Assembly (NCBI GenBank): GCA_025786725.1
Contig: JAHLTZ010000044.1
Coordinates: 1 to 64,000 of the forward strand
Direction: 5' to 3'
Length of the DNA stretch: 64,000 nt
DNA from: Syncephalis fuscata
Lineage: Eukaryota; Zoopagomycota; Zoopagomycetes; Zoopagales; Piptocephalidaceae
The translations under genes and the position numbers were made by a program. Under the pieces are notes generated by a model, which made no database searches, was not told the DNA's origin, and saw nothing but the letters and a program-made list of their open reading frames with translations. Below are positions 9,832 through 39,090 of the stretch, one piece after another (positions within the stretch are counted from its first letter, which is position 1; the number at the start of each line of letters is the position of its first letter).

Positions 9832-11469
9832 CTATTTTTCCACCATGCCTTCTTCAGGGGACGAAGGCTTTGGCTGTGGGGTGTACAAATCCTCATCTTC
9901 ACCGGATAGCTCCTCAAGCGACTTGCCGGCTGTTTCGGGAATGAAGAAGGTAAACAAGAGGCCGATGAACATGAAGACGGCGAAAATAATGATAAGCTTG
10001 GGGACAAATTCGCCCTTGCCGCCAATGTCCTTCATCTGAGAGAAGCCAACCTGGGCAACAATGGCACCCAATTTACCAGAAGCAGCCGAGATACCGTGGG
10101 CCGTTGAACGGTAACGTGTAGGGAACACCTCGCCCGGTACGATAAAAGTAGTGGTGTTTGGACCAAAGTTTTGGAAGAACTGCGTAAGCGTGAAGATAAC
10201 AATAAATAGTACAATGCTGGTGTCGCGAATAGCATTGAAGCCAATGCCCATGATCAAGAAAAGAACCGTAAGAATGGCAAAACCACCGAGCTGAATGCGC
10301 TTGCGTCCAATGCGGTCGACCAGGAATACAGTGACCCAGTAGCCAGGTACAGTACCAAGCATAGCAATAATGATGTTACCAACCGAAGAGGTAAACAAGT
10401 CACGGTATGGCGAGCTATGGTCAACAAAGCCCATTGCATTGAGAATGATCGCATTGTTAAGACCGGTACCGTAGAAGGCAACATCAAGAGCAAACCAGGA
10501 CATTGAAGTACCGAGTAAAACCTTCAGGTTCGACCATTGCGAAAAGTGGCGGCAGAAATCGCTCCATGATGCCTTAGGAGTTTCCTTAACGTGTTGTTGG
10601 GCAACCTGGGCGGCAGCGGCAATATCACGATCGTGGTCATCGGCATTTTTGTTCAAGACGTTGCCGATATCCTTGGTAGCCTTGGTAATGTCGTTGTCAA
10701 TGTCCATGGTGTAGCGTGGCGTTTCGGGGATAGTCAAACGGAAGTAGATGGCAATAATACCGGGAATGGCACCAACACCAATACAAATGCGCCAGACATA
10801 GTCAAAGTTCATCACATCCTCTTCGATGGCACTTTTGAAGGCGGCAACCGTGGCGGTCGATACAAGAGCAGCGGCAAGAATACCAAAACCTTGCATAGCA
10901 AACACGGCAGCAATCATGGCACCACGACGCTTAGTTGTGGCAAACTCGGCTGTGATGACTGCGGAAAGTGGATAATCACCGCCGACACCAATACCGAGAA
11001 TGAAACGCCAGATAATAAGCATTGTAGTGGCGCGAATACCGCGGACGGCATCGGCAGCAAAGGCGGACGTAATGGTAAAGACGACAATCATAAGCAACTC
11101 GATACCGTACATCTTCTTACGGCCAAGACGATCGGCCAAGTAGCCAAAGAATAGCTGTCCAATAAGTGTACCAACGGCGGCGGAGACCTTAAGGCCAAGA
11201 TCAATAGCAGGTGGGACAGTGTTTTTATTGTCGGCAAAATAGACATAGCCCAACATTTGCACCACCAAATTGATGATGAACAAATCGTAGGCGTCGGTGA
11301 AGAAGCCAATGCCGGAGACTAGGCATGCTCGAACGTGGAACCAGCCAAACTTGGCATTGTCGATCTCGGCAAGAGCTTGACGGCGGCGTTCACGAGCGTC
11401 CATCGGTTGGTTAAGCAGCACTTCCGTAGTGGCGCCTTGGTCGGCAGAAAAGTTCTGTTCGGCAGACAT
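9832..11469 (-). CDS. PHO84: High-affinity inorganic phosphate:H+ symporter (PHO84 type)
   Basis: Intronless gene of 545 codons, a usual length for PHO84-type MFS transporters. It imports phosphate with protons across the plasma membrane. Visible signatures: ACLVSGIGFFTDAYDLFIIN in TM1 (FTDAYDLF is typical), GYLADRLGRKKMYGIE in loop 2-3, RFILGIGVGGDYPLSAVIT (the phosphate porter signature) in TM4, PETPRY before the long central cytosolic loop (about residues 255-310), DRIGRKR in the second half, and a PETAGKSLEELSGED-like end. Codon use is GC-richer than neighbouring DNA, typical of a highly expressed gene. The antisense frames over it are shadows. Its 5' flank (11470-11900) is long and free of genes; no perfect CACGTG site was seen there. 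Confidence 0.97.
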   Translation of the reverse strand: MSAEQNFSADQGATTEVLLNQPMDARERRRQALAEIDNAKFGWFHVRACLVSGIGFFTDAYDLFIINLVVQMLGYVYFADNKNTVPPAIDLGLKVSAAVGTLIGQLFFGYLADRLGRKKMYGIELLMIVVFTITSAFAADAVRGIRATTMLIIWRFILGIGVGGDYPLSAVITAEFATTKRRGAMIAAVFAMQGFGILAAALVSTATVAAFKSAIEEDVMNFDYVWRICIGVGAIPGIIAIYFRLTIPETPRYTMDIDNDITKATKDIGNVLNKNADDHDRDIAAAAQVAQQHVKETPKASWSDFCRHFSQWSNLKVLLGTSMSWFALDVAFYGTGLNNAIILNAMGFVDHSSPYRDLFTSSVGNIIIAMLGTVPGYWVTVFLVDRIGRKRIQLGGFAILTVLFLIMGIGFNAIRDTSIVLFIVIFTLTQFFQNFGPNTTTFIVPGEVFPTRYRSTAHGISAASGKLGAIVAQVGFSQMKDIGGKGEFVPKLIIIFAVFMFIGLLFTFFIPETAGKSLEELSGEDEDLYTPQPKPSSPEEGMVEK

Positions 11470-35097: not shown

Positions 35098-38000
35098 TTA
35101 TTCTGTATTTACAAATAAATATATCATATGTTATATGATTAATGTATAAACAATCAATAAACAATGCTACTTACTGCCTATTAGTATTAAGTTATTGATA
35201 CACACATTGAATAGCATGCGATTAGCTCATAGACGATTAATATACAATATTATTTACATTCTATTAATATTAAATAATTAATATCACCAATAAATAGTAT
35301 AGTTAATTTATAGGTTATCAATATACAATATCACTTACGTTCTATTAATATTAAATGATTAATATCATTAATAGATAGTATAGCTAATGTATAGTCATTT
35401 AATATACAACATAACTTACTAGCTATTATATTAAGTTGTTGATATACACAATACATGGTATATAATTAGCTAATAGTTAACCAATATACAACACTACTTA
35501 CCGCCTATTATATTGGGTTATTAACGTACATAGTACATTGTACATAATTAGTGAATAACCAATTAACATACAACGCAGCTTACATCCTATTAATATTAAA
35601 TAATTGGTACAATCAGTAAATAGCATAGCTAATACATAGGCAATTGATATACGATACCACTTACTCTCTATTAATATTAAATAATTAATACCATTAGTAA
35701 ATAGTATGCCTAATGTATATTCAACTAATATGCAATACCACTTACTAGCTATTATATTGAGTTATTAATATACACGGTGCATAGTATATAATTAATCAAT
35801 AGTCAATTAATATACAATAAAACTTACGGCCTATTAATAAGGTTGTTGACGCACATATTACAGCATATGCAATTAGCTAATGCTCAGTTAACATATAACA
35901 CAACTTACAATCTATTAATATTAAATAATTAGTACCATTAATAAATAGCATAGTTAATTTATAGTCAGTTAATATACAATATCACCCACCATCTGTTAAC
36001 ATTAAACAATTAGCACAATTAATTAATAGCATAGTTAATGTATAGTCGATTAATATAAAATACAACTTACTAACTATTGATATTAAATAATTGATACAAA
36101 TAGTAAATAGCATGGTTAATATATATTCGATTAGTATAGAATACGACTTACTAGCTATTAGTATTAAATAATCGATACCAGCAATAAATAGTATAGTTAA
36201 TGTATATTCAGTTAATATACAATATAACTTACCCTCTATTAATATTAAATAATTGGCACAATTAATTAATAGCATAGTTAATGTATAGTCGGTTAATATA
36301 CAATACAACTTACGACCTATTAATATTAAACAATCAATGCAATTAGTAAATAGCATGGTTAATGTATATTCGATTAGTATAGAACACGACTTACTAGCTA
36401 TTAATATTCAATAATTGGTACAGTCAGTAAATAGTATAGCTAATGTATATTTAATATTACTTACGATCTATCAATATTAAACAATTGGTATAGTCAGTAA
36501 ATAGCATAATTAATGTATAGTCAATTGATATATAATACAACTTACAAGCTATTAGTATTCAATAATTGGTACAATTAACCAACATTATAATTAGTGTATA
36601 GTTAATGTATATACAATATCACTTACGATCTATTAATATTAAGTAATTAATACCATTAGTAAATAGCATACTTAATATATAGTCGGCCAATATGCAATGC
36701 TACTTACAGTCTATTAATATTAAATAATTGATACCATCAATCAATATTATAATTAGTGTGTAGTCAGCTAACATACTATAGCACTTACTGCCTATTAATA
36801 TTAAATAATTAATACCATCAATAAATAGCATAGTTAATATATAGTTAGTTAATATGAAATACCACTTACCATCTATTAATATTAAATAATTGATATTATC
36901 AATAAATAGTATGTGATTAGTCAATAGCCAATTAATATACAATACAACTTACAACCTATTAGTATTAAGTTATTGTTACACACGATACATGATATATAAT
37001 TAGTGAATATTCAGCTAATATACAACACAACTTACATTCTATTAATAAGGTTGTTGATACACACAGTACATGGGTATAGTTAGTAAGTAATTAATTGATA
37101 TATAATACAACTTACGACCTATTGTATTGTTAACACACACAATACATAATATATAATTAGTGTATAGTCAATTAATATGCAATGTTACTCGCTCACTATT
37201 CCATCAAATTATTGATACACATAGTGCATGGCATATAATTAGTTTATAAGTTGGTTGATATGCAATGCTACTTACTGCCTATTAATATTAAGTTATCGAT
37301 ATACACAGCACATAATATATGATTATTCAATGCTCAATTAATATACAATTAACTTACATTCTATTAGTATCAAGTTGTTGATATACATGGTGCATGATAT
37401 AAAATTAGCACATAGTTGATTAATATACAATACACCTTACGATCTATGGCATTAAGTTGTTGATATATGCAATACATGGTATATAGTTAATTTACAAGTC
37501 GGTTGATATGCAATGCTACTTACTGCCTATTAATATTAAGTTATTGATATACACAACACATAATATATAATTAGCCAATGCTCAATTAATATATAATATA
37601 ACCTACATTTAGCTAATATTAATTTGTATATAGATACAGTACATGGCATATAATTAGCGCATGCTTTATGGATATGTAATGCAACCTACCAGCTATTGAT
37701 ATTTGTTTGTTGATGAACACAGTAAATAACATGCAATTAGAGCATAGTCAGTTAATATGCAGTACAGCTTACGATCTATTATATCAAATAATTGGCGTCA
37801 GCAATAAATATCATAGCCAATGTATAGGCAAATAATATACAGCAACTTACCTTCTATTAATAGTAAATAATTGGTACAATCGGCAAATAGCATATGGTTA
37901 GTGCAGTCAGTTAGTACACAATACAACTTACTGGCTATTATAATCATTATTTAGAAATGCTGTTAGTAAACAAAATTCTATGCTATATTTATTGATATTG

Positions 38001-38102
38001 CAACATACCACGACGAACTAAGGCTGGCTTAGCATCCACGATGACTGTAGCGGCTATCAAAGCCACAACGACGGTGCAAACTACGGCAATAGAAAGCTTC
38101 AT
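35098..38102 (-). CDS. Secreted cysteine-rich peptide encoded by an array of 35 microexons (34 of 3 nt)
   Basis: Exon 1 (38009-38102) encodes MKLSIAVVCTVVVALIAATV IVDAKPALVRR plus one base, then donor GTATGT. Lower ends of the following exons: 37932, 37851, 37773, 37690, 37607 (6 nt), 37524, 37441, 37358, 37276, 37189, 37116, 37036, 36953, 36870, 36789, 36708, 36627, 36546, 36465, 36395, 36314, 36233, 36152, 36071, 35990, 35909, 35828, 35746, 35665, 35584, 35502, 35420, 35339, 35258, 35175. All but one are 3 nt, each between ...TAATAG-type acceptors and GTAAGT-type donors. The last exon (to 35098) gives AA-TAA. In exon 1 phase the product has 68 residues. After the Arg-Arg (Kex2-type) site comes AKDPAKCNQCTSQCYGNYPY followed by PSQAINDCPKRCAKQCK. 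Six Cys at 38, 41, 45, 59, 63, 67; no stop. Family unknown; probably an effector, toxin-like or antimicrobial peptide (inference). Splicing is predicted, not shown. Confidence 0.75.
35103..38008 (-). repeat. Tandem intron array, mostly 81-bp period
   Basis: Thirty-six consecutive introns. Most are 78 nt (78 + 3 = 81-bp unit), others 67-84 nt. Two sequence types occur. One has ACTATGCTATTTATTAATGG in its middle and prevails at 35258-36870. The other has a TTATATATTATGTGT-like middle and prevails at 36953-37690, with some copies at 35175-35830. Ends are strongly conserved (GTAAGT and TTAATATTAATAG), whereas the 3-nt exons differ from unit to unit. That contrast is the reverse of an ordinary satellite and points to selection on splice signals. 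Confidence 0.85.
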
Positions 38103-38439: not shown

Positions 38440-39090
38440 GAACAGTAAATATGCAATAGATACATGTACATTATCCTGTATTTTTATTACATTAACTATT
38501 TGGTGAAAACAAGTATACTATTTGGTTTTGTAAAAACAGCAATGCTGACTTTTCTGCTGCTCCCACTGAATGACTCGGGCCCCGATATTTGCATGCATGC
38601 AAATAGCGTACAACCTGCCCGGCCTTTACTTCAATCTGCCAGTTATTTGCACAAATGATGTAGCAATGATAATAATTCAGTAAATATGCGATAGAGACAT
38701 GTACAGCATCCTGTATTTTTGTTACACGGCCTAGCTATCTGGTGAAAACAAGTATATTGTTTGATTTTGTAAAAACGATAATAATGTCTTTGCTGTCACT
38801 TCCACCGAATGACTCGGACCCCAATATTTGCATGCATACAAAATAACACATAACCTGCCCGGTCTTTACTTCAATTTGCTAATCATTTACACGAATAATA
38901 CGATAATGATAATAATCCAGTACACAGGCAATAAAAATAGACATATTAGCCTGTATTTTCTATTACGCGATCTAACTATTTGGTAAAAACAAGTATATTG
39001 CTTGGTTTTTTAAAAACAATAATGATGTTTTTATTGTCACTTCCATCGAATGACTCGGGTCCCAATATCCGCATAAATACAAATAGCGTA
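38440..39090. repeat. 240-bp tandem repeat, about 2.7 copies
   Basis: Units begin near 38443, 38680 and 38919 and contain the shared blocks GACATGTACA, CCTGTATTTTT, TTTGGTGAAAACAAGTATA, GAATGACTCGGGCCCCGATA, TTTGCATGCATGCAAAT and CCTGCCCGGCCTTTACTTC. The third unit ends near 39085. Units differ by point changes, so the duplication is not very recent. It sits 340 bp upstream of the microexon gene and could be its upstream regulatory region. No convincing gene is encoded, including the 64-codon frame at 38464. Confidence 0.75.

Follow-up and report, generated by a model that had tools for sequence, protein, structure and literature searches.

Tandem one-codon exons as the probable coding design of a large cysteine-rich peptide family in Syncephalis fuscata

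We analyzed a window of 64,000 nucleotides from the Syncephalis fuscata genome (assembly GCA_025786725.1, contig JAHLTZ010000044.1, positions 1 to 64,000 of the forward strand). On its minus strand lies what we consider, with a probability of roughly 0.92, to be a protein-coding gene of a large S. fuscata family, in which a six-cysteine mature peptide would be pieced together from tandem units of one phase-1 intron and one codon's worth of exon. A sequence-only reading of this stretch had proposed an exon 1 with donor GTATGT, 35 blocks each bounded by an acceptor and a donor, and a terminal acceptor and stop, and every one of these elements is present where it was placed, on the minus strand. 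The array thus proposed is real and its reading as a coding gene is supported; the existence of a large family and of uninterrupted copies goes beyond what had been claimed.

The coding region of the window gene runs from 38102 to 35098 on the minus strand, 3,005 bp carrying 207 coding nucleotides. Exon 1 (94 nt) ends in phase 1 at the donor GTATGT and is followed by 35 microexons, of which 34 are 3 nt long and one is 6 nt long; the terminal exon starts at 35102, behind the acceptor ATACAG, and its stop codon, TAA at 35100-35098, is in frame. The 36 introns measure 67 to 80 nt each, close to the anticipated 36 or so introns of about 80 nt in a 3-kb transcript with a 207-nt coding sequence, and the region forms a tandem array with a period of about 81 to 83. 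The joined coding sequence consists of 68 codons and a stop, with no internal stops, and its 68-residue product has six cysteines downstream of exon 1 and the C terminus KQCK; the stop-free run of 37 joined codons predicted earlier, with its six cysteines and its final KQCK, was reproduced from the sequence. The expected 34 single-codon exons are indeed 3 nt long, with the nuance that the introns are in phase 1, each such exon straddling a codon boundary: its first two bases finish one codon, and its third base opens the following one. The features are as follows.

38009-38102, minus: exon 1, 94 nt; signal-like peptide, short pro-region with terminal Arg-Arg, then first base of a split codon
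37935-38008, minus: intron 1, 74 nt, donor GTATGT
37932-37934, minus: microexon 1, also in deposited model P0125
37851-37853, minus: microexon 2, also in deposited model P0125
37773-37775, minus: microexon 3, donor GTAAGC
37690-37692, minus: microexon 4, donor GTAGGT
37607-37612, minus: microexon 5, the sole 6-nt microexon, donor GTAGGT
37524-37526, minus: microexon 6
37441-37443, minus: microexon 7, donor GTAAGG
37358-37360, minus: microexon 8
37276-37278, minus: microexon 9
37193-37195, minus: microexon 10, weaker GC donor GCGAGT
37116-37118, minus: microexon 11
37036-37038, minus: microexon 12
36953-36955, minus: microexon 13
36870-36872, minus: microexon 14
36789-36791, minus: microexon 15
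36708-36710, minus: microexon 16
36627-36629, minus: microexon 17
36546-36548, minus: microexon 18
36465-36467, minus: microexon 19
36395-36397, minus: microexon 20
36314-36316, minus: microexon 21
36233-36235, minus: microexon 22
36152-36154, minus: microexon 23
36071-36073, minus: microexon 24
35990-35992, minus: microexon 25, weaker donor GTGGGT
35909-35911, minus: microexon 26
35828-35830, minus: microexon 27
35746-35748, minus: microexon 28
35665-35667, minus: microexon 29
35584-35586, minus: microexon 30, donor GTAAGC
35502-35504, minus: microexon 31
35420-35422, minus: microexon 32
35339-35341, minus: microexon 33
35258-35260, minus: microexon 34, weak donor GTAAAT
35175-35177, minus: microexon 35
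35098-35102, minus: terminal exon, coding portion; two bases that finish a Lys codon, followed by TAA

For this contig, NCBI has a deposited model, P0125, that comprises exon 1 and microexons 1, 2, and 3 and then runs into the following intron, matching letter for letter; that it abandons the array after microexon 3 counts against the preferred reading. Sequence past the terminal coding part is conserved in relatives.

Judged by sequence similarity, the window gene is a member of a large S. fuscata peptide family. The exon-1 peptide has at least 150 matches in the genome, the window's own included (150 scored among 323 candidates), and the 28.95-Mb genome has 2,716 copies of the strict splice unit TAATAGNNNGTAAGT (TAATAG-NNN-GTAAGT), far above chance, and 5 of the reversed pattern. 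We modeled 51 exon-1 loci in 299 kb, 44 of them with a donor. Of these 44, 11 had fewer than 10 modeled exons and 2 had an exon 1 that did not fit the phase; both groups were left out, and the remaining 31 models each have 10 microexons or more and an in-phase exon 1. The models were built from site scores and a short acceptor profile, with codon information not used. They contain 844 microexons, of which 800 are 3 nt long, 40 are 6 nt, and 4 are 2 or 4 nt; the prior of the models favors 3-nt exons, a caveat on the preferred reading. Strict units account for 67% of these 844, extrapolating to about 4,000 microexons genome-wide, a figure inflated by redundancy among contigs.

Across the modeled microexons, the donor is GTAAGT in 723 of 844 and the acceptor TAATAG in 637 of 844; a TTTAAT motif is conserved, with A at -10 from the exon in 88%. 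The array introns carry the donor and acceptor consensus of spliceosomal GT-AG introns, conserved between copies. Where a terminal acceptor was listed, 17 of 23 models end in frame no more than 8 residues past the last microexon, 12 of these 17 with exactly six cysteines; the other six comprise three with a 2-nt exon and out of frame, one with a premature stop, and two doubtful cases. At C24:514680-516645 and C19:3371-8208, like splice units recur about every 313 bp in arrays that may belong to another family, with no exon-1 match close by among the matches listed.

For some loci, a small contig and a large one give the same reading (pairs C164/C267, C280/C267, C158/C168, and C104/C212), which suggests haplotigs or recent duplication. 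Such repetition, as between C164 and C267, is what could be cited for an assembly artefact or contamination as the source of the arrays; we give this a negligible probability, given that arrays with differing codons lie on many contigs and that 12 deposited S. fuscata proteins of the family correspond to contigs of this genome.

The reading frame was followed across the microexons of all 31 genes. Four models were truncated where an exon length was not divisible by 3, so that the test covered 785 microexons and 825 codons. Read in the exon-1 phase with the exons in native order, these codons include 1 stop and 138 cysteines, whereas 2,000 within-gene shuffles of exon order gave on average 44.7 stops (sd, 5.0; minimum, 29) and 62.4 cysteines (maximum, 81). 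The two other phases gave 9 stops with 5 cysteines and 79 stops with 32 cysteines. Stop avoidance and cysteine enrichment are confined to the exon-1 phase and the native exon order. Mutual information between the last base of a microexon and the first two bases of the next one, an intron away, is 0.315 bits (shuffled, 0.044), and two microexons away it is 0.100 (shuffled, 0.048). A scan by pattern only found 2 stops in 555 (expected, 30.1). Among strict neighboring pairs genome-wide, a third base T is followed by AA or AG, creating TAA or TAG, in 4 of 459 cases where about 85 would be expected, whereas AA or AG follows a third base other than T in 177 of 957; within-array pairs and duplicated contigs are not independent in these counts.

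These results bear on the possibility that the array is noncoding, a minisatellite inside a 2.9-kb intron that is removed either whole or by recursive splicing that bypasses the 3-nt exons, in which case the product would have 32 residues. The sequence is a tandem repeat, as such an account would have it, and exon 1 spliced straight to the terminal exon would also be in frame; stop avoidance, cysteine enrichment, and order dependence across introns speak against it, as does the presence of the same peptide in uninterrupted paralogs. We reject it as highly improbable on the frame, order, and paralog tests together. Translation of the array as coding sequence, as the sequence-only reading had supposed, is strongly supported by the frame and order tests, the genome-wide avoidance of stops, and these paralogs, all of them comparisons of sequence.

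One of the paralogs is the deposited S. fuscata protein P0122 (69 residues), encoded without interruption at C212:181832-182038 and also on C104. The joined mature peptide of the window gene is identical to it in 19 of 37 columns (51%; E = 2e-11) over a match that spans 36 of its 37 residues, and it scores 46.2 bits, compared with at most 24.3 for 1,000 exon-order shuffles and at most 23.1 for 1,000 residue shuffles, which strengthens the case for a putative coding array. At another array gene (C135:460300), the 15 microexons 33 to 47 spell 14 residues that are contiguous in the uninterrupted locus L079, with 38 of 42 bases identical and all four differences at codon position 3. When the 31 joined peptides were compared with 17 uninterrupted peptides by shared words, the longest words in native order were 14 in one gene, 7 in another, and 4 in the next best, and the longest in 60 rounds of exon-order shuffling was 5; only 2 of the 31 surpass the shuffles in this way, from which we take most mature parts to be too divergent for a word test. 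Against a profile of the same 17 peptides, the joined peptides scored a median of 6.6 bits and the order shuffles 0.35, with 12 of 31 beating all 100 shuffles and 19 of 31 at least 95. The profile includes L093 and L096 with overlong ends and leaves out 3 near copies and 8 peptides with a different mature part from a total of 28.

These 28 uninterrupted loci (6 + 22) have one open frame and no donor or unit in the stretch examined, and they come from 91 exon-1 loci, of which 51 were modeled and 40 picked for long open frames, so that 28/91 is no natural proportion. Three of them (L094, L098, and L099) may contain an intron near the end, and the deposited protein P0124 ends differently from L094. 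The same three together with L105, L107, and L109 have the same signal-like peptide with quite different mature parts, and exon 1 seems to be common to several peptide types. Loss of the cysteine frame in relatives had been named as an outcome that would count against translation; within this genome, this outcome did not occur. An alignment of 14 selected members of the family, of which 4 were joined from microexons and 10 are uninterrupted, has six invariant cysteine columns, and another alignment, of the mature parts of 12 uninterrupted peptides, has only four. A profile search with the peptide family found 12 proteins among 495 candidates, all from Syncephalis fuscata.

As to the origin of the uninterrupted copies, in five of six uninterrupted loci, alignment with the window gene begins about 1.7 to 1.9 kb upstream, the sixth being cut by the contig end, and downstream homology extends for 0.25 to 0.4 kb in four and about 1.35 (to 1.36) kb in two, with some of the matches overlapping owing to repeats. 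A retrogene would share homology restricted to the transcript; here homology extends well beyond the coding region, and we reject a simple retrogene origin. Recombination in place with spliced cDNA is the most likely source, and the one we prefer without regarding it as proved, since independent intron gain at every codon is hard to imagine.

The array genes could be retired copies, formerly spliced codon by codon and by now little expressed or mis-spliced, with the peptides made by the uninterrupted loci. One array gene (C230) has a premature stop, another (C2:599496; L036) lacks the usual exon-1 donor GTATGT and yet is followed by an array, the deposited model reads into an intron, and uninterrupted forms are common in the nonrandom set of 91 loci. 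Two array copies with a 92-nt exon 1 have a reading that contains stops. We nevertheless consider retirement of the arrays quite unlikely: 17 of 23 array models finish in frame, and splice sites differ by only 1 to 2% in close pairs of genes in which intron interiors differ by 8.5%, a disparity that points to recent selection on splicing. This comparison used six disjoint close pairs selected from 11 aligned, in which differences were counted at 8/750 donor, 14/708 acceptor, 703/8308 intron interior, 95/372 microexon, and 5/570 exon 1 positions. Splice sites change least, introns more, and microexons most in these pairs.

The excess of change in microexons depends on the divergence of their flanks. 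With flanks at most 12% diverged, 12/207 microexon and 176/8269 intron positions had changed (P = 0.002), and with flanks at most 20% diverged, 42/258 and 442/10302 had (P = 4.5e-13); under the strictest filter (at most 8%), there was no microexon excess (4/177 versus 89/7072; P = 0.29). Part of this excess may come from exchange between units. In comparisons inside single genes, 40 unit pairs whose flanking introns are both at least 92% identical (mean intron divergence, 0.048) differ at 58 of 120 microexon bases, and the 5 pairs with at least 95% flanking identity differ at 1 of 15. A 641-bp gap between C14 and C267:48400 corresponds to eight codons.

Duplication, deletion, or exchange of units would add, remove, or swap whole codons with the frame and the splice sites left intact. 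It is plausible, though we put it forward tentatively and at somewhat less than even odds, that the array works as a codon-cassette device for diversity, in which unequal exchange and conversion edit the peptide codon by codon, conversion homogenizing the introns while selection diversifies the codons. With one codon and one intron to each repeat, editing of this kind would be free of frameshifts and splice damage.

In the preferred reading, exon 1 encodes a signal-like peptide and a pro-region with a terminal Arg-Arg, and each repeat unit then contributes a short phase-1 intron (about 78 nt) and an exon worth one codon. Recognition would take place by intron definition through the strong donor GTAAGT, the TTTAAT motif (a possible branch site), and TAATAG; the intron length and these three elements fit recognition across the intron. 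The introns are probably spliced out one by one, each event adding three bases to a growing exon, since a 3-nt exon could hardly hold both splice complexes together. A further possibility is that the set of included microexons varies, one gene thus yielding a mixture of peptides. With 840 of the 844 modeled microexons multiples of 3 in a single phase set by exon 1, skipping would preserve the frame, while the uninterrupted paralogs correspond to full inclusion; we consider variable inclusion rather unlikely, if compatible with the preferred reading as an addition to it, and it could form a second layer of diversity at the RNA level.

The peptide itself is probably disulfide-rich and under diversification in a parasite of fungi. 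By eye, the exon-1 product resembles a signal peptide followed by an Arg-Arg site, and the mature peptide is probably secreted and may act extracellularly on fungal hosts or competitors. According to the part of the literature consulted (PMC6784888), a sister species and the genus Syncephalis are obligate mycoparasites. A Pfam search returned no family for the window peptide. One of 14 members matched Toxin_2 (scorpion short toxin; E = 2.5e-4), and the joined mature peptide of C249:40593 scored 24.0 bits against this family (cutoff, 25.1), with no match for five other mature peptides; membership in Toxin_2 was rejected at this score. The structure predicted for the mature peptide of L078, an uninterrupted paralog (alignment of 12), has three short helices with a mean pLDDT of 70.8 and a pTM of 0.43, a confidence too low for a fold search.

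Several known systems resemble this design in part. Aphid bicycle genes have exons longer than one codon and encode larger proteins. They too form a large, fast-evolving family of putative effectors whose internal exons are unusually small and almost all share one phase, with a mean of about 17 exons and more than 100 microexons in a related aphid gene, and the sections of the report consulted describe neither a tandem array of intron plus one codon nor uninterrupted paralogs (PMC9168663). Many small internal exons in one phase are likewise found in the 31 modeled S. fuscata genes. Schistosome MEGs encode secreted variable proteins from small symmetric exons of roughly 6 to 36 nt; S. fuscata microexons share the symmetry but not the size range (800 of 844 are 3 nt and 40 are 6 nt), and we know of no tandem repeat of about 78 nt in MEG introns. 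MEGs are expressed in secretory esophageal glands, according to the part of the source consulted (PMC5825161).

Exons of 1 to 3 nt can be spliced, as in the isolated 3-nt exons of mouse Ncam and Drosophila TnT (PMC8042270) and in the 1-nt exon of Fusarium CYP621A, for which an intronless relative also served as evidence (PMC12940212). The portions of these reports consulted describe one such exon per gene, whereas the window gene has 34 of 3 nt. Recursive splice sites (ratchet points) combine an acceptor with a donor within a few bases and leave nothing in the mRNA, whereas each S. fuscata unit leaves three coding bases; introner elements place many similar introns in one genome, whereas the similar introns here stand head to tail inside one gene family. 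A search of open-license literature (titles and abstract starts of the best matches), Syncephalis microexons included, found no gene of tandem one-codon exons. We regard the design as categorically new because the unit of known microexon genes is not one codon in tandem repeat; with more weight on the word microexon, it could be called an extreme variant.

If the reading is right, this would be the most finely divided protein-coding design known to us, with about one intron per codon through the whole mature peptide and in a large family. One-codon exon arrays would strain exon definition, would allow the sequential removal of introns to be tested in a naturally occurring series of similar units, and would show cleanly how tandem-repeat dynamics act on single codons. 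The uninterrupted paralogs enable direct comparison with something cDNA-like, and standard annotation can overlook a secreted-looking peptide family of this kind.

Elsewhere in the window, a 241-bp tandem repeat of 2.7 copies (38443-39083) lies just upstream of the array gene, an open reading frame of 207 aa at 2003-2626 encodes what we take to resemble a secreted CAP/SCP-type protein, and a phosphate transporter at 9832-11469 is 93% identical to its Syncephalis plumigaleata counterpart.
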